A stretch of DNA of 64,000 nt, from NCBI RefSeq assembly GCF_014279995.1, contig NZ_CP047935.1:1385494-1449493 (forward strand). Reading direction: 5' to 3'. A program made the translations under genes and the position numbers. Positions 10,251 to 36,743 of this stretch are shown here, piece by piece (positions within the stretch are counted from its first letter, which is position 1; the number at the start of each line of letters is the position of its first letter). The notes under the pieces are model-generated. The model made no database searches and was not told the origin of the DNA. It saw nothing but the letters and a program-made list of their open reading frames with translations. Source of the DNA: Synechococcus sp. BIOS-E4-1. GTDB lineage: Bacteria > Cyanobacteriota > Cyanobacteriia > PCC-6307 > Cyanobiaceae.

Positions 10251-10252
10251 GA

Positions 10253-11413
10253 TCAGAACACATCGGCTGGATCAAGGCGCCTTAACTTTGATGTGGCCAG
10301 CCAACCTGAGCCTGAACAAAGAAGCAGCGTCATGGTGAATACAAGTGCGGCACGACTGAACGACATCACCACCAGCAAACCAGTGGCTTGCATCAGAACT
10401 CTGTAAAGCAGAGTTGAAACAAGCAGGCTTGGCAAAAAAGCGAGACTTGCAAGTATCACCGATTCTTGAATAATAATCGCTACAACGAACCGATCGTCGT
10501 ATCCCATTGCTTTCATGGTGGCATATTCACTGATGTGTTCACTCACTTCTGAATAAAGAATCTGATAAACAACGATTCCGCCAACGCTGAAACCCACAAG
10601 AACTCCAAGACCGAAAATCAATCCGAAAGATGTGTTGCGTTTCCAATGCTTCACTTCCCGCAGCTGCAGCTCCTCCATGCTGAGAACCTGCAGCGAAGGT
10701 CCCAGAACCTTGTTCAGTTGGCTTTGAACATCGCTGGCATCAGCACCAGAGTGAAGTTGAACCACTCCGATCTGAATTTCATCGGGATCACGTTCCGGGA
10801 AAAGACTCTGAAAATTGCTGGTTGAAGTGATCAGATTGATATCAGCAGCGAAGGTGAGGCCAAGTTGAAACAACCCATTCACACTGGTGCGTTGACCATT
10901 GAGTTCAGTGGTGAACGACTGACCCTGCTCAAGGCTTGAAGTCACAGGTCCGGCTGATGTTTTGGAAGCCTTGTCGAACAGAACGCCAGCTTGCAGTTGC
11001 AGCGACGATCGCTGCATCGTCAGCTCCGGAAGCTTCAGCGCAGGATTGCCGGGGTCAACGCCCATCACCAAAGCCTGCGTTGATTCCTGAGTCTTCGGAT
11101 TCAACCACTGCAGTTTGCCCAGTCGCAAAGGACTGACTCCACGCACACCCTGGAAGCCAAGGACCTGCGTCAACCGTGATCTGGGGAAACCAGCGGGTTC
11201 TCCGAAATTGGTGTACCGACGAGGGATCACAGCCAGAGATCCGTTGAACTGTTGAATCGGCCGTTTCTGGCTGTCGTAGAGCCCTCCGGAGAGACCGAGC
11301 TGGAAAAACACCAGGACATTGGCAAATCCCACACCTGCCAGAGCCGCGGCCAGGCGCAGAGGACGATGAGACAACTGAAGCCAGGCGATTGGAGTGCGCT
11401 TGATCAGTTTCAC
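10253..11413 (-). CDS. devC: DevC family ABC exporter permease
   Basis: A 386-residue permease of the MacB/FtsX-like fold. One transmembrane segment lies near the N terminus (LRLAAALAGVGFANVLVFFQL). A large extracytoplasmic domain spans about residues 45-265, and three C-terminal membrane segments follow, starting FGLIFGLGVLVGFSVGGIVVY. The FQLGLSGGLYDS block and YATMKAMGYDD motif are typical of DevC. It sits 10 bases after devB and 2 bases before devA, so the three form one operon. Confidence 0.93.
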   Translation of the reverse strand: MKLIKRTPIAWLQLSHRPLRLAAALAGVGFANVLVFFQLGLSGGLYDSQKRPIQQFNGSLAVIPRRYTNFGEPAGFPRSRLTQVLGFQGVRGVSPLRLGKLQWLNPKTQESTQALVMGVDPGNPALKLPELTMQRSSLQLQAGVLFDKASKTSAGPVTSSLEQGQSFTTELNGQRTSVNGLFQLGLTFAADINLITSTSNFQSLFPERDPDEIQIGVVQLHSGADASDVQSQLNKVLGPSLQVLSMEELQLREVKHWKRNTSFGLIFGLGVLVGFSVGGIVVYQILYSEVSEHISEYATMKAMGYDDRFVVAIIIQESVILASLAFLPSLLVSTLLYRVLMQATGLLVVMSFSRAALVFTMTLLLCSGSGWLATSKLRRLDPADVF

Positions 11414-11423
11414 AACACTACCT

Positions 11424-12416
11424 TCAGGGTTGCTGGGGTCTGATGCGACGTTGCTCGTCCGTCAGCGGGTTGAACAGAACGTTCACCTGGAGGTTGTTGA
11501 TTCTGCTGGCGATGGCCAGGCTTTCTTTCGGGAGAGCAAGTTTTACTTTCACCACCCGTTTGTCGACCTTGTCGCCAGCCTCGCCGGTGGCCACGCTTTG
11601 ACTGCTGATCTGTTGTGCAATCTCAGTGACCGTGGCTTGCTGGCTTCTGCCGGGGAAGCCGTTGGCGCTGATGGTTGCCGTTTGCCCAGGACGAATTTCG
11701 GGTAGATCACTCTGGTAAACCTCAGCAACCACGCCCATCCTGGTGGTGTCGCCCAGCAGCAGCAGTCCGTCTTCTCCGACTCGGTTTCCTGGACGAGCCA
11801 GAATTTCAAGGATGGTGCCTTTTGACGGGGCTTTCACAGTCGCCTGGTCCAGGTCAGCCCTGGCCTGCTTCACCTGAGCCTGTTTGACGTTCACATCCGC
11901 CTTGAGCGTCATCTCGTTGGCCAGTGCCTCGTTGAGCTGCGCCAGGGCTGCGTCCGAGTCGGCCTGAAGCGCTTCATAGCGCTGAAGACTGGTCGCACCA
12001 TTCTGGTAAAGCTCCCTGCCGCGGCTTGCTTCAGCCTGAGCCCGACGCTGTTCAGCTCTGTAGCGGTCAATCACTGAGATCTGAGCATCCAGTGCCCGTT
12101 GTGATGCTGTGACCTCGGCTTCCGCCTTGATCAGATTCGCTTTGAGGACGGGCTGAGTCTCGAGCAGAGCGAGGGGCTGACCCTGTTCAACAACCTCTCC
12201 TTCCTCCACCAGAACCTGGCGGATGCTGTCGTTGCTGAGTGAATTCGGAAGACTCACTTTGAGGATTCCGTCGAGAGGCTCGATTCGTCCAAGGGCAGAA
12301 ACCCGACGGGGTTGGAGACTTGCTGTGGATACTTCTTGCTTTTCAGAAGCACCGCATCCACTCAGGATTGCAGCCGATAATCCAAGGGTGATAAGCAGTG
12401 AGGACCCTTGATTCAT
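11424..12416 (-). CDS. devB: DevB family membrane fusion protein (HlyD-like periplasmic adaptor)
   Basis: A 330-residue adaptor that links the DevCA pump to an outer-membrane channel. The chosen ATG at 12416 gives MNQGSSLLITLGLSAAILSGC, a lipoprotein signal with the lipobox LSGC. The frame is open farther upstream, but that extension lacks signal-like sequence. The N-terminal beta/lipoyl half-motif is seen around VLVEEGEVVEQGQPLALLET. A long Ala/Gln-rich coiled coil follows (about residues 95-200) and then the second lipoyl half VKAPSKGTILEILARPGNRV. First gene of the devBCA operon. Confidence 0.9.
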   Translation of the reverse strand: MNQGSSLLITLGLSAAILSGCGASEKQEVSTASLQPRRVSALGRIEPLDGILKVSLPNSLSNDSIRQVLVEEGEVVEQGQPLALLETQPVLKANLIKAEAEVTASQRALDAQISVIDRYRAEQRRAQAEASRGRELYQNGATSLQRYEALQADSDAALAQLNEALANEMTLKADVNVKQAQVKQARADLDQATVKAPSKGTILEILARPGNRVGEDGLLLLGDTTRMGVVAEVYQSDLPEIRPGQTATISANGFPGRSQQATVTEIAQQISSQSVATGEAGDKVDKRVVKVKLALPKESLAIASRINNLQVNVLFNPLTDEQRRIRPQQP

Positions 12417-12610
12417 GGTGCCCCGACCTTTGCAGAGATCGTATTGAGCTCTCTGGGGATTGTCATCAGATATCTCGCAATCCTCATCAGTCTCTGAACC
12501 TCCATTTGTACCAGTTAATTTGCGTAGCTGATGTTGAGTTCGTCGATACCGAGCCTGTCGTTTGTGAAAGCAGCTATTGCCTGTATGACCTGGAACGTCG
12601 TCAAGGTGAA

Positions 12611-12763
12611 ATGTCATCAGCCCCTGCTCATTTTGTGAATAAGACGGCGAGAGTCTTTGAAGAATGTTGTGAGACCAAGCAGATGATGAAAGCGACATTT
12701 GGATCTGTTTCTCTCCTCAATCAGTCAGCAACAGAGCAGGCGCTTGAACTGCTGAGCGCATAG
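12611..12763 (+). CDS. small hypothetical protein
   Basis: A 50-codon frame starting MSSAPAHFVNKTARVFEECC and ending ATEQALELLSA. A GGTGAA sequence about six bases before the ATG could serve as a weak ribosome site. The frame is also open upstream with other starts. Coding is plausible from the amphipathic C-terminal helix; no family was recognised. Confidence 0.35.
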   Translation: MSSAPAHFVNKTARVFEECCETKQMMKATFGSVSLLNQSATEQALELLSA

Positions 12764-16006: not shown

Positions 16007-16331
16007 ACTTACTGATTGGCAGTCTACTTGAAACCCTTTAAGCTAATTCACCAAAAGCTCCTGCCACTACAGGGGTTTTATTTCTTCAATCACCCCAAAA
16101 AGCCAACAAATCAGCCTCCGATACCTGGCACGATTGAGCGCAGTTGAGTAGTAATTAGGCAAACGAATCCGTTACTGACCTTAGTAGTGACAAGGTTCTG
16201 ACCGATTCACCAGACGCGCACCAGAACTTCACGGATTACGCACCAGCGCCGTGTAGTGTGGTTCACCAGAAGGGTTGTGATCTCGAAGGAGTCCAGGGGG
16301 CAACGCCTCTAAACGTTCACTCCTTAGAACC
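16007..16331 (+). promoter_or_regulatory. intergenic region with type B upstream module, before unit 6
   Basis: The usual TGGCACGATTGAG box occurs at 16126, but the normal -35/-10 pair is replaced. CACCAGA-type repeats lie at 16208, 16219, 16230 (CACGGAT, degenerate), 16241 and 16264, mostly on an 11-bp period. A hairpin follows: AAGGAGT at 16286 pairs with ACTCCTT at 16319, with an inner GGGGC/GCCTC stem. The ATG is at 16332. The same layout recurs before the Arg-rich gene at 21139 and the procA unit at 26012. Confidence 0.65.
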
Positions 16332-16589
16332 ATGACACAAGAACAACTCGCAGCTTTCCTGGCTAATGTCAAAGGCAACACCAGCCTTCAGGAGCAACTT
16401 AAAGCCGCAGCTGATGTCAATGCTGTTGCTGCAATTACTAAAGAAGTAGGATTTATTATCAATGTTGATGGCCCCAACAAGGCTCAGTCAAGATTTTCAG
16501 AAAAAGAACTGGAAGGTGCGGCTGGTGCTAGAGCTGAAACATGCGAATGGTCAGCGTCATGTGATCTATGTAAATGTTGGTTTTGCTGA
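16332..16589 (+). CDS. Nif11-like leader peptide RiPP precursor (ProcA-like), unit 6, Gly-Ala site
   Basis: An 85-residue precursor with an MTQEQLAAFLANVKGNTSLQ leader, a subtype found only under the type B upstream region. The cleavage position reads EGAAGA rather than Gly-Gly. The core RAETCEWSASCDLCKCWFC has five Cys but only three Ser/Thr, so not all Cys could form thioethers. Disulfides, metal binding or a different enzyme are options. Confidence 0.85.
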   Translation: MTQEQLAAFLANVKGNTSLQEQLKAAADVNAVAAITKEVGFIINVDGPNKAQSRFSEKELEGAAGARAETCEWSASCDLCKCWFC

Positions 16590-16648
16590 CCACGACACAT
16601 GTTGACAACGAAAATAAGACCTTGATTTTTTGGACTACTCATCGTCTA

Positions 16649-16678
16649 ATGCCCCCGCCACCACGGGGGGGGCATATT
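16649..16678 (+). terminator. terminator-like hairpin after unit 6
   Basis: ATGCCCCCG and a run of G ending GGGGGGGCAT form a strong stem with a short CCACCA loop, followed by ATTTCTTC. The T-run is short. Confidence 0.55.
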
Positions 16679-16721
16679 TCTTCAATACCCTGACTAACCC
16701 CATCAATCAGCCTCCAATACG

Positions 16722-16802
16722 TGGCACGATTGAGCACAGTAAGTATTAACCAAAGACACTGCAGAAGAACATTGCTATAACCGTTAAAGACTCCTGAAAC
16801 CC
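16722..16802 (+). promoter_or_regulatory. procA promoter, unit 7
   Basis: TGGCACGATTGAG at 16722; AAGACA at 16753; TATAAC at 16776 (17-base spacer); ATG 27 bases later. This is the closest copy to the consensus. Confidence 0.6.
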
Positions 16803-17063
16803 ATGTCAGAAGAACAACTTAAAGCTTTCATTCAGAAGGTCAAAGCAGACACCAGCCTTCAGGAAAAGCTCAAAGCAGCTACCGATGTTGACGCAGGTCT
16901 TGCAATTGCAAAAGAGGCTGGGTTTAGTATTTCTGCTGATGACGTTCGGACCAAGATTTCAGATGATGAATTGGAAAGGGCGGCAGGAGGTGAATGCGGG
17001 AACGTTAGCTGTGTTAATATTTACCTGCTGACGATAGGAAAGGATAAGGAAGTAGAGCTGTAG
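16803..17063 (+). CDS. Nif11-like leader peptide RiPP precursor (ProcA-like), unit 7
   Basis: An 86-residue precursor with a DDVRTKISDDELERAAGG leader. The 23-residue core begins ECGNVSC and continues into a Cys-free charged tail ending GKDKEVEL. Two Cys and one Ser lie close together, so at most one small ring is expected near the N terminus. Confidence 0.88.
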   Translation: MSEEQLKAFIQKVKADTSLQEKLKAATDVDAGLAIAKEAGFSISADDVRTKISDDELERAAGGECGNVSCVNIYLLTIGKDKEVEL

Positions 17064-17146
17064 TTTACTCATCAAATCGCTAGCATTAGCAGGGGATTTA
17101 ATTGCTTCAATAGCTTGAATAATCCCATAATACAGCCTCCAATACT

Positions 17147-17226
17147 TGGCACGATTGAGCACTCTAATTGTTAGCCACAGACACTGCAGCAAACCATTGC
17201 TATAACCGTTAAAGACCCTTATACCG
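17147..17226 (+). promoter_or_regulatory. procA promoter, unit 8
   Basis: TGGCACGATTGAG at 17147; CAGACA at 17178; TATAAC at 17201 (17-base spacer); ATG 26 bases later, one base shorter than most copies. Confidence 0.6.
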
Positions 17227-17478
17227 ATGTCAGAAGAGCAACTCCAAGCTTTCCTGGAGAAAGTTAAATCAGACAACAGTCTTCAGGAGAAGCTCAAAGC
17301 AGCTACTGAATCAGACGCAGTTTCTGCGATTGCGAAAGAGGCGGGATTTAGTATCTCTGCTGACGATTTGAAGAAGGTTCAATCAGAGGTTTCAGAAGAA
17401 GAGCTGGAAGGCGCGGCTGGGGGAGAGAGATCAAAAAATTGCTGTCTAACCGCGGTTTGTCGGACACTTGCGTTCTAG
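17227..17478 (+). CDS. Nif11-like leader peptide RiPP precursor (ProcA-like), unit 8
   Basis: An 83-residue precursor. The leader MSEEQLQAFLEKVKSDNSLQ ends EGAAGG. The core ERSKNCCLTAVCRTLAF has three Cys, including an adjacent pair, with one Ser and two Thr as ring partners. Confidence 0.9.
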   Translation: MSEEQLQAFLEKVKSDNSLQEKLKAATESDAVSAIAKEAGFSISADDLKKVQSEVSEEELEGAAGGERSKNCCLTAVCRTLAF

Positions 17479-17587
17479 AATTTTGTAAATTAAACCCCTT
17501 TCCTACTCCATCCACCCACCATATTGTCGCAGCTTTTTTTAATGCTTCAAATCACACCAACAAGACCATCAATCAGCCTTCAATACC

Positions 17588-17668
17588 TGGCACGATTGAG
17601 CTCAGTAATTGTTAGCCAAAGACGGTTCAAGACATTGTTGCTATAACCGTTAGAGATTCCCAATAACC
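17588..17668 (+). promoter_or_regulatory. procA promoter, unit 9
   Basis: TGGCACGATTGAG at 17588; AAGACG at 17619; TATAAC at 17642 (17-base spacer); ATG 27 bases later. Confidence 0.6.
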
Positions 17669-17941
17669 ATGTCAGAAGAACAACTCAAAGCCTTTCTGGA
17701 GAAGGTTAAAGGCGACACTATCCTTCAGGAGAAACTCAAAGCAGCTGCTGATGCTGATGCAGTCCGTGCGATTGCTAAAGAGGCTGGCTTTAGCATCTCT
17801 GCTGATGATTTGAAGAACGTTCAGCAATCAGAACTTTCAGCTGAAGAACTTGAAACCGTGGCTGGTGGTTCAAACTATTATAGATGCCATTCTTGCTGGA
17901 ATAAGTTCAGTCAATGCAGTGGCGTGGCTGGAACTTGCTAG
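17669..17941 (+). CDS. Nif11-like leader peptide RiPP precursor (ProcA-like), unit 9
   Basis: A 90-residue precursor with the common MSEEQLKAFLEKVKGDTILQ leader, ending ETVAGG. The 23-residue core starts SNYYRCHSCW and ends GVAGTC. It has four Cys and four Ser/Thr, the right balance for several thioether rings. Confidence 0.9.
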   Translation: MSEEQLKAFLEKVKGDTILQEKLKAAADADAVRAIAKEAGFSISADDLKNVQQSELSAEELETVAGGSNYYRCHSCWNKFSQCSGVAGTC

Positions 17942-18153
17942 GAAAAATCAAGAAGTGGCATATTGTTAAGGTTGGTCAATCTACGCACCAAACCCGCTAT
18001 CCACCAAGCCAAAGGTAACACAATCAAATTTTTTATTCTCTCATTGCAAATCGTCTAGATAGCACATGAAACCGTACCGCTGAGTTCGGCTTCCCCCTCT
18101 GCTCCCTGCAGTGCAACAGGCGTAGAACCAAAGAGTCCCTTTTGGAGATACGC

Positions 18154-18423
18154 ATGACTAAAAAACAACTCAAACCATTCCTGGAAAAAGTCAGAGGCAA
18201 CACCACTCTTCAGGAAAAGCTCAAAGCAGCTGCCGATACTGACGCCGTTGTGGCGACTGCCAAAGAAGCAGGTTTCAGCATCTCGACTGAGGACTTGAAG
18301 GAAGCTCAGCCAGAGCTTTCAGGCAAAGAACTTGAAAGAATGGCCGGCGGTGATGCTGGTGGTGATGTTGGGTCACTTTGGTCTTATTTTTGCCAGTCAC
18401 ATTGTCAAAATATTTGCAATTGA
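18154..18423 (+). CDS. Nif11-like leader peptide RiPP precursor (ProcA-like), unit 10, divergent promoter
   Basis: An 89-residue precursor starting MTKKQLKPFLEKVRGNTTLQ and ending ERMAGG. The ATG at 18154 is preceded by TTGGAG, a ribosome binding site that the other units lack, and the standard promoter cassette is absent. An alternative TTG four codons upstream is less likely. The core ends SYFCQSHCQNICN, with three Cys, after a Gly/Asp-rich stretch. It may have been placed under a different promoter. Confidence 0.87.
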   Translation: MTKKQLKPFLEKVRGNTTLQEKLKAAADTDAVVATAKEAGFSISTEDLKEAQPELSGKELERMAGGDAGGDVGSLWSYFCQSHCQNICN

Positions 18424-18514
18424 AAGTTGCAATCGCAATCCGCTCACCATATGCAGTAATTGTCTTATTATTCCTTTAATCACAACCTTTTCCTAACAAA
18501 TCTCCCTCCACCCA

Positions 18515-18594
18515 GGCACGATTTAGCGCAGTAATTGTCAGTCAGTGACACTCCAGTATACCGTAGCTATGACTGCTGAACCGACCTGCTAACC
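18515..18594 (+). promoter_or_regulatory. procA promoter, unit 11
   Basis: Degenerate GGCACGATTTAG box at 18515; GTGACA at 18545; TATGAC at 18568 (17-base spacer); ATG 27 bases later. Confidence 0.55.
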
Positions 18595-18858
18595 ATGTCA
18601 GAAGAACAACTCAAAGCCTTCCTTGAAAAAATCAAAGCTGACACAAGCCTTCAGGAAAAGTTCAAAGCAGCAGCCGATACCGATGCTGTTTCTGAGATTG
18701 CCAAAGAGTCGGGATTCATGATCACTGCTGATGATTTAAGGAACGCTCAATTAGTGATTTCTGAAGAAGAACTGGAAGGCGTAGCTGGGGGGAAAAGCAG
18801 TGACTGCTTCGCGGAGTGCAAGAGCTGTAAATACGTTTCTTGGGAAGTTTTGCGTTGA
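18595..18858 (+). CDS. Nif11-like leader peptide RiPP precursor (ProcA-like), unit 11
   Basis: An 87-residue precursor with an MSEEQLKAFLEKIKADTSLQ leader, ending EGVAGG. The core starts KSSDCFAECKSCKY with three Cys spaced four and three residues apart and ends in a Cys-free VSWEVLR tail. Confidence 0.9.
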   Translation: MSEEQLKAFLEKIKADTSLQEKFKAAADTDAVSEIAKESGFMITADDLRNAQLVISEEELEGVAGGKSSDCFAECKSCKYVSWEVLR

Positions 18859-18962
18859 TTATCTCTCCATTAACTTAAATCAAACTTGAACCCCATTATT
18901 TGTCAGGAGTTTTTATTGCTTTAATCACTCCAGGCTCCAAGAATTAATCTTCAATACCTTGC

Positions 18963-19039
18963 TCGATTGAGCGTAGTAATTATTAGCTAAAGACACTGCA
19001 GCAGATCGTTGCTATGACTGCTGAACAGACTTGATACCC
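18963..19039 (+). promoter_or_regulatory. procA promoter, unit 12
   Basis: Partial TCGATTGAG box; AAGACA at 18990; TATGAC at 19013 (17-base spacer); ATG 27 bases later. Confidence 0.55.
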
Positions 19040-19294
19040 ATGTCCCTAGAACAACTCAAAAACTTTATTGCCAAAGCCAAAGGCGATTCCAATCTTCAGG
19101 AGAAGCTCATAGCTGCTGCTGATTCAGACGCAGTTCTTGTAATTGCGAAAGAGGCTGGGTTTATGATTTCTGCTGATGATTTGAAGAATGCTCAATCTGA
19201 GATTTCTGAGGAGGAGTTAGAAGGCGTGACTGGTGGGACGAATATCCGCTCTCTTGCTGCCTGTCCTTGTATCTTGCGTTGGACCCACAAATAG
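19040..19294 (+). CDS. Nif11-like leader peptide RiPP precursor (ProcA-like), unit 12
   Basis: An 84-residue precursor beginning MSLEQLKNFIAKAKGDSNLQ. The ATG at 19040 keeps the promoter geometry; an upstream TTG would add MIP. The leader ends EGVTGG. The core is TNIRSLAACPCILRWTHK, with a CPC pair and Ser/Thr on both sides. Confidence 0.9.
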   Translation: MSLEQLKNFIAKAKGDSNLQEKLIAAADSDAVLVIAKEAGFMISADDLKNAQSEISEEELEGVTGGTNIRSLAACPCILRWTHK

Positions 19295-19433
19295 GTTTTG
19301 AGTGGATAGTGCGAAGCCTATTTTTGGCCAATCCTACAATTTTAGCCAGAAAAGCTCTGTGATGAATGGGGTATTTGCTTCAATCGCCCCACCCCCTCTC
19401 TCAAAATAAGCTCATCAATCAGCCTCCAATACC

Positions 19434-19514
19434 TGGTGCGATTGAGCACAGTAAATATTAATCAAAGACGTTGCAGCAGAGCGTTGCTATGACTTCTGAA
19501 AAGACCCGCTATTC
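19434..19514 (+). promoter_or_regulatory. procA promoter, unit 13
   Basis: TGGTGCGATTGAG at 19434; AAGACG at 19465; TATGAC at 19488 (17-base spacer); the start codon, here GTG, 27 bases later. Confidence 0.55.
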
Positions 19515-19736
19515 GTGTCAGAAGAACAACTCAAAGCTTTCCTAGAAAAGGTCAAAGCAGACACCAGCCTGCAAGATAAGCTTAAAGGTGATGATGTTGA
19601 CGCAGCTTTTGCGATTACGAAAGAAGCTGGGTTTGTCATTACAACCGATGAGATCAAGCAGGCTCAATCTGGTATCAAAGAACTTTCAGGAAACGAGCTT
19701 GACATACACGTTGTCGCTGGATTTTGGAAATCATAA
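19515..19736 (+). CDS. degenerate Nif11 leader peptide without core, unit 13
   Basis: A 73-residue frame from a GTG that replaces the usual ATG. The leader MSEEQLKAFLEKVKADTSLQ is well kept, but a codon block is lost (KLKGDDVDAAF) and the C terminus reads HVVAGFWKS. There is no Gly-Gly and no Cys. It is probably a decaying unit whose core has been lost; a leader-only peptide is an alternative. Confidence 0.65.
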   Translation: MSEEQLKAFLEKVKADTSLQDKLKGDDVDAAFAITKEAGFVITTDEIKQAQSGIKELSGNELDIHVVAGFWKS

Positions 19737-19897
19737 GCCCCCACTGGTGGAGGTGGCTTCGTCAACTGGAGGGGTAGCTGCTGATCATCAACAATCAGCT
19801 CCGACTACCAGAAAATTTGGGCTTTGCTGAGTGTCAGTTGCCGTCTGACATCACTGCCAACCGTTGCTACGTCCAGGCTGTAGCTCAACGCACTCCA

Positions 19898-20117
19898 ATA
19901 TCAGAAGAACAACTCAAAGCCCTTCCTAAAAAAGGTCAAAGTCGACACTACACTTTAGGAAAAACTTAAAGCAGCTAAGTCACCTGAAGACGTCGTAGGG
20001 ATCGCTAAAGAGCACGGTCATGAATTCACTGCTAATAAGATTACTGAACTCAGTGAAGAAGATCTATAAGGTGTGGCTCGCGGTGGGACAATTACTTGTT
20101 GTACAGGTTATTGTTGA
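19898..20117 (+). pseudogene. broken procA unit 14
   Basis: The start codon reads ATA, a frameshift lies near 19920 in a run of A, and two stop codons (CTTTAG and CTATAA) interrupt the leader. Leader remnants include SPEDVVGIAKEHGHEF-like codons. The core after Gly-Gly would be TITCCTGYC, with three Cys and still intact. It is followed 23 bases later by another procA start, an unusually short spacing. Confidence 0.75.
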
Positions 20118-20140
20118 GAGTACATTGCTTTTAAATAATT

Positions 20141-20371
20141 ATGACTTCAGAACAACTCAAGGCATTCCTCGGAAAAGTCAAAGGCGACTCCAGTCTTTAG
20201 TCAAAGCTCAAAGCAGCTAAGTTACCTGAGGATGTTGTGGTTATCGCTAAAGAATATGCTTACGAATTCACTGCTGATATGTTTACTGAGCTCAGTGAAG
20301 AGGAACTAGAAGGCGTGGCTGGTGGCTGGACAGTTCATGACAGAGGTCGCACAATTTGTTGTGGACAGTAG
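20141..20371 (+). pseudogene. procA unit 15 with one in-frame TAG
   Basis: The frame opens MTSEQLKAFLGKVKGDSSL, then meets TAG at 20198, and continues in frame through LPEDVVVIAKEYAYEF to a perfect EGVAGG. The core is WTVHDRGRTICCGQ, with two adjacent Cys. Only one change interrupts it, so inactivation is recent or the stop is tolerated. It has no promoter of its own; the upstream junction is the same as at 23089. Confidence 0.75.
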
Positions 20372-20472
20372 CCCACTTTTATATATTTACTCATTATCAA
20401 AGCCTCTGCTGCCACAGCGAATTCTAATTGCTTCACTCTTGCCAGTAATCCCACAAACCAGCCTTCAATTCC

Positions 20473-20553
20473 TGGCACAATTGAAGGCAGTAAATATTAT
20501 CCAAAGTCTCTGCAGCAGACCATTGCTATAACCACTAAAGACTTCCGATGCCA
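20473..20553 (+). promoter_or_regulatory. procA promoter, unit 16
   Basis: TGGCACAATTGAA at 20473; AAGTCT at 20504; TATAAC at 20527 (17-base spacer); ATG 27 bases later. The promoter is intact although the gene is frameshifted. Confidence 0.55.
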
Positions 20554-20816
20554 ATGTCAGAAGAACAACTCAAAGCATCCTTGAGAAGGTCAAAGCAGAC
20601 ACCAGCCTTCAGGAAAAGCTTAAAACTGCTGCTGATGTTGACGCAGGTCTTGCAATTGCGAAAGAGGCTGGGTTTAGTATTTCTGTTGATGACGTCCGCA
20701 GAGAGATTTCAGATGAGGAACTGGAAGGAGCGGCTGGGGGTTATTTTTCACTCGAAGCAGGATGTAAGGCGCCGTGTTGTACTATAGGAGCATGTTCTAC
20801 CAGCAGACCGCTCTGA
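20554..20816 (+). pseudogene. procA unit 16 with a one-base deletion
   Basis: The start MSEEQLKA is normal, but one base is missing near 20577, so the frame shifts into an Arg/Leu-rich nonsense peptide. Reading on in the proper frame restores the DDVRREISDEELEGAAGG leader end and a core containing GCKAPCCTIGACS, with four Cys. The whole unit is otherwise undamaged, with promoter and terminator. Sequencing error is possible. Confidence 0.75.
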
Positions 20817-20861
20817 TTTTTTTAGAAAAACAATATTAAAGAGATTAAGTTTACTTATCAA

Positions 20862-20890
20862 AGCCCCTGCGGTAGCAGGGGCTGTTTATT
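20862..20890 (+). terminator. terminator hairpin after unit 16
   Basis: A perfect 9-bp stem AGCCCCTGC, loop GGTA, GCAGGGGCT, followed by GTTTATTTC. This is the best copy of the repeated hairpin. Confidence 0.75.
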
Positions 20891-20950
20891 TCTTCAATCT
20901 CGTCAATAAGCTCAGTAATCAGCCTCTGATATATGTCACATTGAGTGCAG

Positions 20951-21138
20951 TTGAGAAGAGATCAAGCGTATGAATGCCCTACTAGCCTATGCAGTGAAAA
21001 GGATCTGAATAATTCACCAGATCCTCACCAGATCCTCTACGCTTCTGCACCAGAGCTTTGCAGTGGGGTTCACCAGAAGGGCTGTGATCTTGAAAGAGTC
21101 CAGGGGGCAGAACCCCTAAACATTCACTCCCTAAAACC
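20951..21138 (+). promoter_or_regulatory. type B upstream module before the Arg-rich secreted gene
   Basis: CACCAGA direct repeats at 21015, 21026, 21048 and 21071, with a degenerate slot at 21037. A 5-prime UTR hairpin follows: AAAGAGT at 21093 with ACTC at 21126, and inner GGGG/CCCC. Spacing of the repeats is identical to that upstream of the procA units at 16332 and 26012, although the downstream gene is unrelated to procA. Confidence 0.65.
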
Positions 21139-21438
21139 ATGACCACATTCAATAAAGTGAAAAAGGTCACCGCAGCCGTACTTTGTGTTGGATTGATCGG
21201 AGCCACAACGACTGCTTTGGCTCCTGCCGCTGAGGCGCGGAGCTACGAACAGCAAAGGCGGCATGAGCTGAGACAGCTGCGGCGGGAGATTCGCCGCGAA
21301 ACGCGTGATTTCCAGCGTGCTCGGCGTGCCTATCACCGAGAAGTTAATCGCTATCCACTTGTGATTCCTGTATATGGGCTCAGGTATGGGAATGTTTATG
21401 GGGCTCCCGCTGGATTTGGAATACAGCTGCGCTTCTGA
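21139..21438 (+). CDS. Arg-rich secreted hypothetical protein
   Basis: A 99-residue protein. The N terminus has a Sec signal peptide (KVKKVTAAVLCVGLIGATTT, then ALAPAAEA) with probable cleavage after AEA at about residue 33. The mature part is an Arg-rich helix (RHELRQLRREIRRETRDFQR) followed by a Tyr/Gly-rich C terminus (YGLRYGNVYGAPAGF). There is no Cys, no Nif11 leader and no known family. It shares its upstream regulatory region with two procA genes, and a strong terminator follows. Confidence 0.8.
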   Translation: MTTFNKVKKVTAAVLCVGLIGATTTALAPAAEARSYEQQRRHELRQLRREIRRETRDFQRARRAYHREVNRYPLVIPVYGLRYGNVYGAPAGFGIQLRF

Positions 21439-21456
21439 AGGACTATTAACAATCCA

Positions 21457-21783
21457 TTACCAGCCCCGTTTCGCCACGAGCGGGGTTTTTAATTGCCCTG
21501 GTTCCCTCGGCAGGATGTGCTTTACCAGGTCGGCGTTTATCCAACAAATCACGCCAGAATCCACATATGCGATTTGAAAGAGGTTGTGGATGTTCGGTTC
21601 TCGGGCACCGCCGCCGCAGTGGATTACCTGCCCCATCCACCAATCCTTGTCTCTCTTCTCTCCGGACAGACAGTCGTGCTGCACGATCACCGTTTTGTCT
21701 GGAACCACGCTCAGGAAGTTCGGCTGCTCTGAGGGGTCCTGTTGGTTGTAGATCCCGTGATCGACTGACACGCTCTCGAACAT
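21457..21783 (-). CDS. DUF3104 domain-containing protein
   Basis: A 108-residue protein starting MFESVSVDHGIYNQQD. The segments NFLSVVPDKTVIVQHDCL, KDWWMGQVIHCGGGAREP and LFQIAYVDSGVICWINADLV match the DUF3104 family of marine picocyanobacteria, as I recall it. The start at 21783 is chosen because the frame upstream is not domain-like. The last codons run through the terminator of the opposing gene, so the C terminus may have been truncated or extended by a rearrangement. It is the only minus-strand gene inside the array. Confidence 0.7.
   Translation of the reverse strand: MFESVSVDHGIYNQQDPSEQPNFLSVVPDKTVIVQHDCLSGEKRDKDWWMGQVIHCGGGAREPNIHNLFQIAYVDSGVICWINADLVKHILPREPGQLKTPLVAKRGW
21464..21492 (+). 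terminator. rho-independent terminator after the Arg-rich gene
   Basis: CCCCG and CGGGG form a stem around TTTCGCCACGAG, followed by TTTTT. It also lies within the last codons of the opposing DUF3104 frame. Confidence 0.8.
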
Positions 21784-21915
21784 AGGACACCTGTACCAGC
21801 AACGAAACAGCAGGTCTGCCCAAGTTCTTTTGGTAAGACGAGGCCGGATGCTGCCCTGAGTGCGGATGACGCCGCTGCTGGCCATGGCTAGGTCTTCTGT
21901 ACTGGCCAATCACCT

Positions 21916-22182
21916 ATGTCAGAAGACCAGCTCAAAGCCTTCCTCGAAAAGGTCAAAGGCGACACCAGCCTTCAGGAAAAGCTCAAAGCAGCTGCTGATG
22001 TTGATGCAGTTGTTGCGATAGCGAAAGATGCTGGCTTTAGCGTCTCTGCTGACAACTTGAAGAAGGCTCAATCAGAGATTTCTGAAGAGGAACTGGAAGG
22101 CGCGGCTGGAGGTGCCGAAACGGCGTGCTTGACAAACAACACCTGTTTTGAGCCACAAGCGTGCTGTTATTTCACCTTGTAG
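21916..22182 (+). CDS. Nif11-like leader peptide RiPP precursor (ProcA-like), unit 17
   Basis: An 88-residue precursor, leader MSEDQLKAFLEKVKGDTSLQ ending EGAAGG. The core begins AETACLTNNTC and ends PQACCYFTL, with four Cys and several Thr. The usual promoter cassette is absent: the 132 bases upstream are shared with the divergent DUF3104 gene, so it must be read from a different promoter. Confidence 0.88.
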   Translation: MSEDQLKAFLEKVKGDTSLQEKLKAAADVDAVVAIAKDAGFSVSADNLKKAQSEISEEELEGAAGGAETACLTNNTCFEPQACCYFTL

Positions 22183-22280
22183 AGAGTGGTTATAGAAATT
22201 TATTCATAAGAGCCCCTGTCGGCGCAAGGTTTTTGTTTCTCCAATCACTCCAAAAAGCCTATAAATCGGCATTTAATAAT

Positions 22281-22360
22281 TGGCACGATTGAGCGCATCA
22301 AATATAAGCCATAGACACTACACCAAACCGTTGCTATATCTCCTGAATAGCTCTGCATCC
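22281..22360 (+). promoter_or_regulatory. procA promoter, unit 18
   Basis: TGGCACGATTGAG at 22281; TAGACA at 22312; TATATC at 22335 (17-base spacer); ATG 26 bases later. Confidence 0.6.
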
Positions 22361-22687
22361 ATGTCAGAAGAGCAACTCAATGCCTTCCTAGATAAGGTCA
22401 AAGCTGATTCCAATCTTCAGGAGAAACTAAAAGCAGCCAAGTCACCTGAAGATGTTGTGGGCATCGCTAAAGTACACGGTCATGAATTCACTTGTGACAA
22501 GATCAGTCGACTCAGGGAAGATGAGCTAGAATGCCTGGCAGGCGGAGGGCTCAGCATATGGGGATGCACAGAATGCGTAGTTGGAACTTTTCACTGCAAG
22601 AGATGCGATTTGTCAAACCTGTTTAAATTAACATCTCAAGTACACAATTTAGTGCTGCAAATTATTGGAAATGAATGCACGGCCTGA
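22361..22687 (+). CDS. Nif11-like leader peptide RiPP precursor (ProcA-like), unit 18, long core
   Basis: A 108-residue precursor, the longest here. The leader MSEEQLNAFLDKVKADSNLQ belongs to the SPEDVVGIAK type and ends ECLAGG. The core of about 46 residues begins GLSIWGCTECVVGTFHCKRC and runs into a Cys-poor tail with one last Cys. The leader itself has two Cys, which is unusual. The tail may be accidental read-through after loss of an earlier stop. Confidence 0.85.
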   Translation: MSEEQLNAFLDKVKADSNLQEKLKAAKSPEDVVGIAKVHGHEFTCDKISRLREDELECLAGGGLSIWGCTECVVGTFHCKRCDLSNLFKLTSQVHNLVLQIIGNECTA

Positions 22688-22753
22688 ATTTGTGTTCTCC
22701 AGAAACCTTGTCAAGAAAAATACTCTTATAATCATCAGATATATATTAAAACT

Positions 22754-22834
22754 CGTCACGATTGAGCGCAGTAATTATTAATCAAAGACACTGCTGCAGA
22801 CCGTTGCTATGAATGTTGAAAAGATCTGCTACTC
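22754..22834 (+). promoter_or_regulatory. procA promoter, unit 19
   Basis: CGTCACGATTGAG at 22754; AAGACA at 22785; TATGAA at 22808 (17-base spacer); ATG 27 bases later. Confidence 0.6.
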
Positions 22835-23065
22835 ATGTCAGAAGAACAACTCAAAGCGTTCCTGGAAAAGGTCAAAGGCGACACCAGCCTTCAGGGGAAG
22901 CTCAAAGCTGCAGCTGATTCTGACGCAGTTATTGCGATCGCCAAGGAGGCTGGGTTTAGTATTTCGGCTGGCGATTTGAAGAAGGCTCAATCAGAACTTT
23001 CTGAAGAAGAGCTGGAAGGCGTGTCTGGCGGTATCACAATCTCTTGGTGTGCTGGTGAGTGTTGA
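22835..23065 (+). CDS. Nif11-like leader peptide RiPP precursor (ProcA-like), unit 19
   Basis: A 76-residue precursor, leader MSEEQLKAFLEKVKGDTSLQ ending EGVSGG. The ten-residue core is ITISWCAGEC, with Thr and Ser upstream of two Cys, a compact two-ring candidate. Its stop is followed after 23 bases by a second, broken procA. Confidence 0.9.
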   Translation: MSEEQLKAFLEKVKGDTSLQGKLKAAADSDAVIAIAKEAGFSISAGDLKKAQSELSEEELEGVSGGITISWCAGEC

Positions 23066-23088
23066 GAGTACATCACTTATAAATAATT

Positions 23089-23330
23089 ATGTCCCTAGAA
23101 CAACTCAAGGCATTCCTCGCCAAAGTCAAAGACGATTCCAATCTTCAGGAGTAACTAAAAGCAGCTAAGTCACCTGAAGATATTGTAGGAATTGCTAAAG
23201 AACATGGCCACGAATTCACTGCTGATAAGATCGACTAGCTCAGCGAAGAGGAGCTGGAAGGCGCAACTGGCGGATGGCTGCCGAGCTTGGAGCGAAGAGG
23301 AGCTGGAATGCGACGGCTGACTTTGGGAGT
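23089..23330 (+). pseudogene. broken procA unit 20
   Basis: Opens MSLEQLKAFLAKVKDDSNLQ then TAA at codon 22, continues as SPEDIVGIAKEHGHEF and meets TAG before LSEEELEGATGG. After Gly-Gly an internal copy of AGCGAAGAGGAGCTGGAA (23242 and 23291) follows, so the core region is scrambled. It lacks a promoter and starts 23 bases after unit 19. Confidence 0.75.
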
Positions 23331-23365
23331 GCTGTCACTGAACTCAGTGGAGTTTACTTACCCCA

Positions 23366-23394
23366 AGCCCCTGTTCTCGCAGGGGCTTTTCATT
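23366..23394 (+). terminator. terminator hairpin after unit 20
   Basis: AGCCCCTG, loop TTCTCG, CAGGGGCT, then TTTCATTTC. Confidence 0.7.
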
Positions 23395-23437
23395 TCTTCA
23401 ATCAGCCCAAACAGCTTACAAATCAGCCCTCACTACT

Positions 23438-23518
23438 TGGCACGATTGAGCGCAGTAAGTATTAGCCAAAGACACTTCAAGACATTATGGCTATAACCCT
23501 TAAAGACTCCCGATAGCT
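23438..23518 (+). promoter_or_regulatory. procA promoter, unit 21
   Basis: TGGCACGATTGAG at 23438; AAGACA at 23469; TATAAC at 23492 (17-base spacer); ATG 27 bases later. Confidence 0.6.
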
Positions 23519-23779
23519 ATGTCAGAAGAGCAACTCAAAGCCTTTTTAGACAAGGTCAAAGCAGACACCAGCCTGCAAGACAAGCTTAAAGCAGCCGCTG
23601 ATGTTGACGCAGCTCTTGCAATTGCGAAAGAGGCTGGGTTTATGATTTCTGCTGATGACGTTCGGACCAAGATTTCAGATAATGAGTTGGAAAGAGCTGC
23701 AGGAGGGGAGCAGACGAAAGACGAACTTGGTTGTCCTACGCTATCTACTAGTCGGGATGATTGCTCGTATGCGTGCTGA
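23519..23779 (+). CDS. Nif11-like leader peptide RiPP precursor (ProcA-like), unit 21
   Basis: An 86-residue precursor of the DDVRTKISDNELERAAGG leader type. The 23-residue core starts EQTKDELGCPTL and ends DDCSYAC. It has three Cys, with Thr and Ser both between and before them. Confidence 0.9.
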   Translation: MSEEQLKAFLDKVKADTSLQDKLKAAADVDAALAIAKEAGFMISADDVRTKISDNELERAAGGEQTKDELGCPTLSTSRDDCSYAC

Positions 23780-23968
23780 AAAAGCTATCTACTAGGATTT
23801 CAGAAGTACTAACCTACAGTACTAAATTTGCTGTTCCTACTCCTACTCCTGCTCCAGCAATTCCTAGTCCCCACCTGCTAACCCCCTGCTGCTCATCAAA
23901 CCCCCTGCCGCAGTGGTTTTTTATTTCTTCAATCACCCCAAAAAGACCACCAATCAGCCTCCAATACC

Positions 23969-24049
23969 TGGCATGATTAAGCGCAGTAAATACTAGTTAA
24001 TGACGCTACAGCACGCCGTTGCTATGAATTCTGAATAGACTTCATACAT
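23969..24049 (+). promoter_or_regulatory. procA promoter, unit 22
   Basis: TGGCATGATTAAG at 23969; ATGACG at 24000; TATGAA at 24023 (17-base spacer); ATG 27 bases later. Confidence 0.55.
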
Positions 24050-24325
24050 ATGTCAGAAGAACAACTCAAAGCCTTTATTGAAAAAGTAAAAGCTGACACT
24101 AGCCTTCAGGAGAAGCTAAAAGCAGCTGCTAACCCTGATGATGTGGTCTCTATTGCCAAAGAAGCAGGATTTAGTATCTCTGTCGATGACTTGAATAACG
24201 CTCAATCAGAGCTTTCTGAAAAGGAGCTTGAAGGTGCTGCTGGGTTGGGCAATATAAATACACCCCCATTTCCTGTCTGTTGCTTGTGCCGTCCAATATC
24301 TGAAGAAATGTCGAAGCTGCCGTAA
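24050..24325 (+). CDS. Nif11-like leader peptide RiPP precursor (ProcA-like), unit 22, Gly-Leu site
   Basis: A 91-residue precursor. The leader MSEEQLKAFIEKVKADTSLQ ends EGAAGL, so the second Gly of the cleavage motif is lost. The core begins GNINTPPFPVCCLCRPIS and ends EEMSKLP. The CCLC cluster has a single upstream Thr, so ring formation would be limited. Confidence 0.85.
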   Translation: MSEEQLKAFIEKVKADTSLQEKLKAAANPDDVVSIAKEAGFSISVDDLNNAQSELSEKELEGAAGLGNINTPPFPVCCLCRPISEEMSKLP

Positions 24326-24449
24326 ACGTTAATGCTGGCATGTTTAAGTATCTGGCTCTTGGAGTTCACATAACACCTAAAACTGCCGCCACAGGGGCTT
24401 TTTATTTCTTCAATCATGCCAGTAATCCAATAAATCAGTCTTCAAGGCC

Positions 24450-24530
24450 TGGCCCGATTGAGCGTAGTGAATACTATCCAAAGCATCTGCAACAGACCGT
24501 TGCTATGATTGCTTAACAGACCTCATACCC
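24450..24530 (+). promoter_or_regulatory. procA promoter, unit 23
   Basis: TGGCCCGATTGAG at 24450; AAGCAT at 24481; TATGAT at 24504 (17-base spacer); ATG 27 bases later. Confidence 0.55.
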
Positions 24531-24776
24531 ATGTCAGAAGATCAACTCAAGGCTTTCCTGGAGAAAGTCAAAGGCGACACCAGCCTTCAGGAGAAACTAA
24601 AAGCAGCGAAAACTCCTGAGGACGTCGTAAGCATCGCTAAGCAATACGGCCACGAATTCACGACTGATAATATTTCTAAATTAAGTGAAAGAGAGCTGGA
24701 AGGTGCCTCTGGGGGTTGTGAGCTTTTTACTAAATGCGAGTGTCATGGAACTTTAATTAGTTTGACCTTTGGATAA
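24531..24776 (+). CDS. Nif11-like leader peptide RiPP precursor (ProcA-like), unit 23
   Basis: An 81-residue precursor. The leader MSEDQLKAFLEKVKGDTSLQ continues into the TPEDVVSIAKQYGHEF subtype and ends EGASGG. The core is CELFTKCECHGTLISLTFG, with three Cys in the N-terminal half and Thr/Ser mostly after them, so rings would close with Cys N-terminal to the dehydrated residue. Confidence 0.9.
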   Translation: MSEDQLKAFLEKVKGDTSLQEKLKAAKTPEDVVSIAKQYGHEFTTDNISKLSERELEGASGGCELFTKCECHGTLISLTFG

Positions 24777-24849
24777 GATCTCAGACTTTTTGAGCACAAT
24801 CGGAACAGGAAGGATCAGTCAATAACCCAACAAATCAGCCCTCAATACC

Positions 24850-24930
24850 TGGAACGATTGAGCGCAGCAATTATTAACCAAAGGCACGGCAGCAGACCGT
24901 GGCTTTAACTGCTGAACAGACCTGCTACTT
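24850..24930 (+). promoter_or_regulatory. procA promoter, unit 24
   Basis: TGGAACGATTGAG at 24850; AAGGCA at 24881; TTTAAC at 24904 (17-base spacer); ATG 27 bases later. Confidence 0.55.
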
Positions 24931-25182
24931 ATGTCAGAAGAGCAACTCAAAGCTTTTCTAGAAAAAGTGAACGCTGACACCACTCTTCAGGAAAAGCTCA
25001 AAGCTGCAGCTGTTGTTGATGCTGTTCTTGATATTGCAAAGGTGGCTGGGTTGACGATTTCTGCTGATGACGTTCGGACCGAGATTTCAGAAGAGGAGCT
25101 GGAACGAGCTGCCGCTGGGGGGGATGGCGAGAATTTTACGCTATGTAATAGAATGAGATTGTGTATTGTTGTCTGTGATTGA
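24931..25182 (+). CDS. Nif11-like leader peptide RiPP precursor (ProcA-like), unit 24
   Basis: An 83-residue precursor with a DDVRTEISEEELERAAAGG leader that has one extra Ala before Gly-Gly. The core is DGENFTLCNRMRLCIVVCD: three Cys but a single Thr, so only one thioether can form. Confidence 0.9.
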   Translation: MSEEQLKAFLEKVNADTTLQEKLKAAAVVDAVLDIAKVAGLTISADDVRTEISEEELERAAAGGDGENFTLCNRMRLCIVVCD

Positions 25183-25342
25183 GAAATGAATTAATATTAC
25201 TCACTTTGTTGTTCCTACGCCTACTCTAAAATTTCCAGTCACCCTCTTGCTTACCCCCTGCTGCCCAGCAAAGCACCTGCCTCTGCAATAACTTTGATTG
25301 CTTCAATAGCCTAACTGATCCCATCAATAAGCCTTCAACACC

Positions 25343-25423
25343 TGTCACGATTGAGTGCAGTAATTATTAGATGGAGACACTGCGAGATATGGTTGCTATA
25401 ACCATTAAAGACTATCTATCCCA
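25343..25423 (+). promoter_or_regulatory. procA promoter, unit 25
   Basis: TGTCACGATTGAG at 25343; GAGACA at 25374; TATAAC at 25397 (17-base spacer); ATG 27 bases later. Confidence 0.55.
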
Positions 25424-25687
25424 ATGTCAGAAGATCAACTCAAAGCCTTTTTAGAAAAAGTCAAAGGCGACACCAGCCTCCAGGAGAAGCTAAAAGCAGC
25501 TGCTGACGTTGACGCAGCTCTTGCAATTGCGAAAGATGCTGGCTTTAGTATTTCTGCTGATGACGTTCAGAACGAGATTTCAGATAGTGAGCTGGAAAGA
25601 GCTGCTGGCGGTGAGTATGAGTGTCTTTGTCACTGTACATGGGATGATGTTACCTCATGTACTGTTAATACTTGGGGATTGGGATGA
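25424..25687 (+). CDS. Nif11-like leader peptide RiPP precursor (ProcA-like), unit 25
   Basis: An 87-residue precursor with a DDVQNEISDSELERAAGG leader. The 24-residue core starts EYECLCHC and ends NTWGLG, with four Cys and four Ser/Thr. A near-exact 19-base repeat (25641 and 25681, 40 bases apart) spans the end of the core and its stop codon, so the C terminus arose through a local duplication. Confidence 0.9.
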   Translation: MSEDQLKAFLEKVKGDTSLQEKLKAAADVDAALAIAKDAGFSISADDVQNEISDSELERAAGGEYECLCHCTWDDVTSCTVNTWGLG

Positions 25688-25820
25688 TATTACCTCATGA
25701 AGGATAAGGATAGAAAACATAGATTTAGTAAACTTATCAAAGCTTCTGACTCTGTAGAGTCTTTTTTAATAAACTCTTAAAGCTCATAAATTAGCTTTCA
25801 ATACCTGGTACGGTTAAGAG

Positions 25821-26011
25821 CAGTTGAGCAGGAATCCGAGAGGCGGATGCCTTATATAACTAAGTAGTGACAAGGTTCTGAGACATACACCATTTGCTCA
25901 CCAGAACCCTGCGGGGTTTCCACCAGAACTGTGTAGTGGTGTTCACCAGAAGAGCTGTGATCTTAAAGGAGTCGAGGGGGCTACACCTCCATTCATTCAC
26001 TCTTTAGAACC
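25821..26011 (+). promoter_or_regulatory. type B upstream module before unit 26
   Basis: CACCATT at 25888 and CACCAGA at 25899, 25921 and 25944, with an unoccupied slot at 25910. Spacing matches the modules before 16332 and 21139. A 5-prime UTR hairpin pairs AAAGGAGT at 25965 with ACTCTTT at 25999, with inner GAGG/CCTC. Confidence 0.65.
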
Positions 26012-26257
26012 ATGACACAAGAACAACTCACAATTTTCATTGCTAACGCCAAAGGCAACATCAGCCTTCAGGAAAGGCTCAAGGCAGCGGCTGATACCAA
26101 TGCTGTTGCTGCCATTGCTAAAGAAGTAGGATTTACTATTTCTGTTGATGACTTGAAGAGAGCTCAATCAGACATTCCTGATGAAGTGCTCGAAGGAGTG
26201 GCTGGTGGAGCGTCGTGGAGCGGTCCCATGTGGAATACTACCTGCGTTGGTGGTTGA
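26012..26257 (+). CDS. Nif11-like leader peptide RiPP precursor (ProcA-like), unit 26
   Basis: An 81-residue precursor of the MTQEQL leader subtype (MTQEQLTIFIANAKGNISLQ), ending EGVAGG. The core is ASWSGPMWNTTCVGG, with one Cys, two Ser and two Thr, so one ring only. It shares both leader subtype and upstream module with unit 6. Confidence 0.88.
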   Translation: MTQEQLTIFIANAKGNISLQERLKAAADTNAVAAIAKEVGFTISVDDLKRAQSDIPDEVLEGVAGGASWSGPMWNTTCVGG

Positions 26258-36519: not shown

Positions 36520-36743
36520 ACACTGAGCTTCTGACTAGAGCAGCTTCTGTGCTGAACAGCTGAGACCCCTTCCCTGAGATGTTGGATGCGTTTTGTATCC
36601 ATTTGAACGACTAAACCATTGGCGTTTGTTCTATAAGAAGTCTGTAGCAACAGCTACCAACAACGTTCACCTCTTGCTTCAGAGAGGCGCAGTTCGATTC
36701 AGGCCAAGGAACGGGGACCTGAACTTGCTTCGAGGAACCATTC

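Follow-up and report, generated by a model that had tools for sequence, protein, structure and literature searches.

Three genes in a 64,000-nucleotide stretch of the Synechococcus sp. BIOS-E4-1 genome (contig NZ_CP047935.1, positions 1,385,494 to 1,449,493; below, the window) are preceded by the same block of about 115 bp, which carries 7-bp CACCAGA repeats on an 11-bp phase. Two of the genes are procA-type genes for prochlorosin precursors and the third encodes a small arginine-rich protein. The block is probably a real, portable promoter module of a secretome regulon, and a candidate regulator can be named for it. We favour as fairly probable the reading that the module is an operator-promoter occupied by OmpR/PhoB-type dimers on the 11-bp phase, that it controls an exported-peptide regulon and that its most likely reader is the OmpR-type regulator of a gene trio described below.

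The original prediction, made from the letters of the window, had placed CACCAGA-type repeats at relative positions 0, 11, 22 (degenerate), 33 and 56 upstream of the genes starting at 16332, 21139 and 26012. CACCAGA words with zero to two mismatches were present at 0, 11, 33 and 56 in all three places; the site at position 0 before 26012 reads CACCATT, and no repeat appears at position 22 in a profile of 125 copies. Sets of four such sites with at most eight mismatches in total occurred exactly three times on the + strand of the window and not at all on the − strand. In 40 random windows (Markov-1) the yield was 0.075 sets per window when up to eight mismatches were allowed, and 0.0 at ≤4 or ≤6. 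The genome-wide search proposed with the prediction was also productive: the pattern CACCAGA-N15-CACCAG-N17-CACCAGA gave 12 matches in the genome, against none for the reversed control. A sequence-only model built from these 12 matches (R1) scored 102-105 bits at the three copies and 6.8 at the next best position of the window. The common block is longer than the repeats from which it was recognized, about 115 bp at all three places; the phased repeats are followed by GGGCTGTGAYCTTGAAGGAGTCGAGGGGG, then by a small hairpin, with a start codon close by. The three copies and their genes are as follows.

16196..16310, + strand: module copy 1 (R1 102.1 bits), upstream of the procA-type gene 16332-16589
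16208, 16219, 16241 (1 mismatch) and 16264, spanning 16208..16270, + strand: the four CACCAGA repeats of copy 1 (mismatch search)
16283..16295, + strand: conserved downstream element TCGAAGGAGTCCA of copy 1 (conservation profile)
16296..16310, + strand: small hairpin GGGGGC/GCCTCT of copy 1, probably in the 5' untranslated region (UTR; stem analysis of 125 copies)
16332..16589, + strand: Nif11-leader prochlorosin-type precursor, MTQEQL (TIGR03798, 55 bits; cut-off 32.3)
21003..21117, + strand: module copy 2 (R1 104.6 bits), upstream of the gene 21139-21438
21015, 21026, 21048 and 21071, spanning 21015..21077, + strand: the four CACCAGA repeats of copy 2 (mismatch search)
21103..21117, + strand: small hairpin of copy 2 (stem analysis)
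21139..21438, + strand: small arginine-rich protein that seems to carry a signal peptide (other copies of the module precede paralogues, L031 and L077)
25876..25990, + strand: module copy 3 (R1 103.4 bits), upstream of the procA-type gene 26012-26257
25888 (CACCATT, 2 mismatches), 25899, 25921 and 25944, spanning 25888..25950, + strand: the four CACCAGA-type repeats of copy 3 (mismatch search)
25976..25990, + strand: small hairpin GGGGG/CCTCC of copy 3 (stem analysis)
26012..26257, + strand: Nif11-leader prochlorosin-type precursor, MTQEQL (TIGR03798, 59.5 bits; cut-off 32.3)

The TIGR03798 and R1 matches thus bear out the claim that two MTQEQL procA units and an arginine-rich, apparently secreted protein stand under one upstream module. 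No Pfam or NCBIfam family matched the arginine-rich protein.

A regulon of just these three genes, as first proposed, proved too narrow. The common module stands, and R1 found 36 matches in the BIOS-E4-1 genome (G000; G002 is Synechococcus WH7803, and other G numbers label sampled genomes of relatives), 34 of them at E<1e-10; in relatives the module mostly precedes other exported-looking families. Within the genus, 15 of 31 genomes contained an R1 match at E≤0.01. The best E was ≤7.8e-7 in 13 of them, BIOS-E4-1 included, and these 13 make up the genus module set; G008 and G019, each with a single weak match (E 0.009 and 0.007, respectively), were not included. Among 400 sampled genomes of the family, R1 matched 18 at E≤1e-4, of which five lie outside the genus; copy counts from this search are lower bounds because at most nine candidates were scored per genome. 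We analysed 156 copies, namely the 36 of BIOS-E4-1 and 120 of relatives fetched from among the matches listed, some weaker matches not being fetched. An exact search of a species-level genome collection with the most conserved stretch returned 27 stretches, 24 of them in Synechococcus or Prochlorococcus (WH7803, UW105, UW140, MIT 0701 and others) and the remaining three in a Clostridia metagenome-assembled genome, Desulfobulbus and an unidentified bacterium. Carriage of the module by phages was rejected, as exact CTGTGANCTTGAAGGAGTC occurred in none of the viral contigs.

The spacing of the repeats was close to fixed. Counting sites with at most one mismatch that lay within a few bases of where they were expected, the successive intervals in assignable copies were 11 bp (110/110), 22 bp (112/113) and 23 bp (115/122, the other seven being 22 bp), and the distance from the last repeat to GAAGGAGTC was 21 bp in 124 of 132 copies. 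For the conservation profile, seven of the 156 copies were lost at the anchoring step and 24 were removed as near-identical, leaving 125 non-redundant copies. Conservation peaked at TTCACCAGA, TCACCAGAAC and CACCA and then remained high through TGnAGTGGGGTTCACCAGAAGGGCTGTGAYCTTGAAGGAGTCGAGGGGG. At the 3' end, a stem of at least 4 bp can form in 110 of the 125 copies, compared with 16% of mononucleotide shuffles, and its arms vary with compensating changes (for example GGTGG/CCGCC, GGAGGC/GCCTCC and TTGGGG/CCCCAA). This conserved stem suggests that the 3' end of the module is transcribed.

The same hairpin might mean that the whole conserved block is a 5' leader, either a riboswitch or a protein-binding leader, and that the repeats act in RNA; in copy 1, moreover, TCGAAGGAGT can pair with ACTCCTTAGA ahead of the ATG. 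We consider an RNA element of this kind highly unlikely. The repeat spacing hardly varies, which is expected of a helical phase and not of RNA loops. The folding signal is low in the repeat half (mean z −0.4) compared with the 3' end (−2.1), and no Rfam family reached its gathering score there, the whole window giving just Glutamine-II at 36661-36723. We also considered an upstream open reading frame (ORF) in the leader and gave it up, as its codons would be affected by changes after GTGA.

Operators of the OmpR/PhoB type characteristically have 7-bp direct repeats with an 11-bp phase, as found here. The regulator family named in the original prediction fits this, and a candidate OmpR-type regulator with a largely matching distribution and neighbourhood does exist. 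Pho boxes and other tandem sites of the OmpR family likewise consist of several 7-bp direct repeats in a row on this phase. The words bound by PhoB differ from CACCAGA. The module is unlike the Pho box type in that slots 2 and 4 are empty in its main form, the last site is shifted by 1 bp in most copies, an ordinary −10 box is missing and a long conserved core follows the sites. Its geometry of 7+4 bp is also that of PhoP of Mycobacterium tuberculosis, which binds 7-bp direct repeats with 4-bp spacers (PMC4832192). In two copies of G001 six slots in a row are occupied at 11-bp steps, five by CACCA and one by CACCC (the latter read by eye from the sequence), so that the six-slot array is almost unbroken, with a deviating third unit. 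We rejected four consecutive exact 11-bp repeats as the ancestral form, since none of the 400 genomes contained them and the G001 copies deviate in their third unit.

What follows the module is mostly a gene for an exported-looking product. We assigned gene classes by rule and then read them over by eye. Among the 156 copies, 63 preceded a double-glycine leader peptide, 32 a Sec-like small protein, 22 a prochlorosin-type precursor of the MTQEQL kind, 12 a long gene and 13 another short gene, and 14 had no ORF in reach or lay at a contig end; 117 of the 142 ORFs thus looked exported. The corresponding numbers in BIOS-E4-1 were 13 prochlorosin-type, nine double-glycine, nine Sec-like, two long, one other (a further arginine-rich paralogue) and two without. 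The distance from the module end to the ATG was 20-22 nt for 21/22 prochlorosin-type and 21/32 Sec-like genes, 20-26 nt for 11/12 long genes and 25-41 nt for 58/63 double-glycine genes. We observed a Met-Thr start in 95 of the 142 ORFs, many of the proteins being unrelated, as if the common block ended inside the second codon. Seven long proteins behind the module (L265, L266, L267 and L318-L321) are otherwise unlike and alike at their ends, four reading ..PYQAQ..Y(E/A)VLA and three ..VLA or ..VMA. These common ends might direct secretion, conceivably by the type I route. In G001, an RTX-type protein (HemolysinCabind repeats) is encoded at L261:3110-3910, with the regulator on one side and a DUF6554 gene that bears the module on the other.

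Dispersed copies in such numbers might also be a mobile repeat, such as a miniature inverted-repeat transposable element, or merely recently duplicated DNA with no regulatory role. Modules with differences at just 8-9 of 114 positions do precede unrelated genes, and an inverted repeat, GTGACAAGGTTCT/AGAACCATGACAC, flanks copies 1 and 3. We nevertheless regard this explanation as very improbable. The inverted repeat is not general: the mean best 12-mer identity was 7.46 in 116 copies and 7.13 in shuffles, and a match of ≥10/12 was found in just six of the 116. The copies face their ORF one way, an ATG ORF of at least 30 aa within 80 nt being present downstream of 139/148 copies (those with enough DNA on both sides) and leftwards on the other strand of 39/148. 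Conservation within the block is uneven, with peaks at the phased sites. Furthermore, no prochlorosin-type gene stands behind the module in G005 (16 copies fetched, 10 of them before double-glycine peptides by rule) or in G059 (nine copies, seven before double-glycine peptides), so the module does not simply travel with procA. The nearest module in the same genome belonged to the same gene class in 61 of 92 cases over all genomes.

The original prediction had also set the module apart from the rest of the procA array, and this held: the window's other procA units lack it, and the MSEEQL-type units inspected in the rest of the genome have a different upstream region. The genome of BIOS-E4-1 contains at least 150 prochlorosin-leader matches, several with an internal stop. 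Among the best 30 of 150 (L326-L355), 13 had the module, and all 13 start with MTQ or MTE. The 17 without it start with MSEEQL, MSEDQL, MSLEQL or MAEEQL, except L338 (MTEEQL) and L351 (MTQEQL). In 15 of these 17 module-less genes (among L335-L355) a TGCTA-type sequence, often TGCTATAAC, lies upstream at about the same place and is perhaps an ordinary −10 box. From the sequence there may thus be two promoter classes that largely follow the two leader subtypes. A regulon tied to the lanthipeptide synthetase LanM found no support in the distribution of LanM. At the cut-off used, LanM was not found in module-bearing G002, G029 and G001, nor in the incomplete genomes G013, G017 and G030, and it was found in module-less G006, G012, G015, G018 and G023.

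The candidate regulator emerged from the PF00486 matches in the genus, among which we first spotted an OmpR-type regulator beside a module copy. In BIOS-E4-1 it belongs to a trio outside the window (about G000:C1:3199017-3202386) that consists of the regulator, a protein of the Phosphonate-bd family (PF12974) and a histidine kinase. The regulator (P0003, gene at G000:C1:3199019-3199711) has both the Response_reg and the Trans_reg_C domain; in the PhoB equivalog test it scored 215 bits against the TIGR02154 cut-off of 296, and none of the NCBIfam families shown reached its cut-off for any of the three proteins. Orthologues of the regulator are 65-96% identical to that of BIOS-E4-1, other regulators at most 51%.

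We scored the kinase as present when its sensor profile (A4) matched at E<1e-80; matches in 25 further genomes, the best at 1.5e-8, covered stretches of the profile's last part and were disregarded. Fourteen of the 15 kinase stretches read also carried the regulator; the exception was G322, whose regulator (75% identity) sits on a different contig. The binding protein was present in 13 of 15, not being found in G001 or on the G322 stretch. Of the 400 genomes, 15 had the kinase, 18 the module and 13 both (Fisher p=1e-18). The counts for both, kinase alone, module alone and neither were 10/1/3/17 within the genus (p=6e-5) and 3/1/2/363 outside it (p=5e-6). Against the 6e-5 for the kinase, the association with the module in the genus was p=0.14 for LanM and p=0.30 for the C39 peptidase, and the latter was rejected as a partner.

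Trio and module are also neighbours. In G000, G025, G028 and G016 a module copy is found 279-283 bp from the regulator gene; in G013 and G059 a copy neighbours the kinase gene, at 485 bp and about 0.4-0.5 kb, respectively. The distance to the nearest trio gene was 2.8 kb in G001 and 12.9 kb in G054, and G189 has a weak module copy about 400 bp from its closest regulator homologue (51% identity). The rough chance of a module copy within 3 kb of the trio was 0.4-10% per genome. We take the trio's regulator as the likely, if putative, reader of the module.

Several findings weigh against this assignment. In contrasts corrected for relatedness on a DnaG tree (27 of the 31 genus genomes; G013, G014, G015 and G017 gave no DnaG match), four to five were independent within the genus, none contrary, and the sign test was not significant (p 0.125-0.5); LanM did about as well as the kinase. 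The neighbourhoods in G000, G025, G028 and G016 look like one inherited locus, and in G005, G009, G026 and G029 other genes stand between those for the binding protein and the regulator. The complete genome of WH7803 has three module copies, one of them before a shortened gene (51 aa compared with 143 aa in G022), but the kinase is missing and no regulator in it exceeds 43% identity. Likewise, G017, G030 and G147 (74-80% complete) and G189 (99%, one weak copy) have the module and lack the kinase, and the kinase was seen without a detected module in G125 (82% complete) and G026 (63% complete). The regions between the regulator and binding-protein genes of ten genomes contained no phased repeat set, and therefore no sign of autoregulation of the trio; stray words there were one CACCA in G028 and two reverse words 24 bp apart in G125. 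Finally, TANNNT starting between −40 and +55 was found in just 7 of the 125 copies, so the promoter reading has no support from an ordinary −10 box, and the sites do not abut a sigma-70 −10 box; abutting one is usual, though not strictly defining, for OmpR/PhoB-type operators.

These observations could mean that another factor reads the same operator-promoter, either a different OmpR-type regulator of the genome or, acting with an alternative sigma factor, some unrelated DNA-binding protein, and that the trio is linked to the module by descent or neighbourhood only. The module without the trio in WH7803, the ten Trans_reg_C matches in the BIOS-E4-1 genome, the missing canonical −10 box and the loss of significance on correction for phylogeny all fit such a reader. 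On the other hand, the trio follows the presence of the module, and module copies lie near it in several arrangements. Trans_reg_C counts differ little, by eye about 9-11 in genomes with the module and 5-11 in those without (genomes at least 93% complete). We therefore think a different reader unlikely, while giving it some weight.

In the reading that we favour, with the trio's regulator as the most likely reader, the four 7-bp CACCAGA sites (slots 0, 1, 3 and about 5) would be a binding array for response-regulator dimers, which would activate rather than repress. The array would directly abut GGGCTGTGAYCTTGAAGGAGTCGAGG, a promoter core of strong conservation at which transcription would begin; the small 5'-UTR hairpin would follow and then, some 20-40 nt on, the start codon. 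Controlled in this way would be MTQEQL-type prochlorosin precursors, double-glycine peptides, small Sec-type proteins and some long proteins, whose products would be exported. If the OmpR-type protein encoded beside the phosphonate-binding-like periplasmic protein and the histidine kinase is indeed the regulator, an extracellular small molecule would switch the whole set. We extend this tentatively, and with somewhat less than even confidence, to a secretome regulon of marine picocyanobacteria. Unrelated genes would gain the portable module as a block up to the start codon, the trio would read it together with a form of the polymerase that needs no ordinary −10 box, and prochlorosins, double-glycine peptides, small Sec-type proteins and large secreted proteins would be released together on one extracellular cue.

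Parts of this arrangement have counterparts elsewhere. Sensing systems with three components that include a periplasmic binding protein are known from the TorT/TorS type, in which the genes for binding protein, kinase and regulator are near each other as in the trio; the binding protein here belongs to Phosphonate-bd (PF12974). Small peptides with a double-glycine leader are shared with EbfG1-4/PteB of Synechococcus elongatus, where they are exported by a C39-type transporter and encoded in a cluster of four genes (PMC4997328). In contrast to that cluster, dozens of dispersed genes stand here under one module, together with prochlorosin-type and Sec-like genes. The two procA-type genes of the window are Nif11-leader precursors of the prochlorosin kind (procA/syncA); PMC10783134 names regulators in some prochlorosin clusters, and its main text nowhere uses the words promoter, upstream or intergenic. 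We found no description of the module in the open-licence literature searched. An OmpR-type regulon is a known kind of system. What is new, as far as we have seen, is a portable module across unrelated families of exported-looking peptides, its missing −10 box and a candidate three-gene sensor.

The role and timing of prochlorosins and double-glycine peptides in ocean cyanobacteria is a question that the module makes directly approachable, as a common control element with a named candidate sensor and regulator offers a handle on what the exported peptides respond to. The module is in addition a DNA signature for finding further short exported peptides.

Two other features of the window may be recorded. 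The Glutamine-II riboswitch aptamer lies on the + strand and scored 70.8 bits. Genes for an ATP-binding cassette ATPase, an FtsX-type permease and an HlyD-type adaptor at 9558-12698 (− strand) adjoin the procA array and may encode an exporter.

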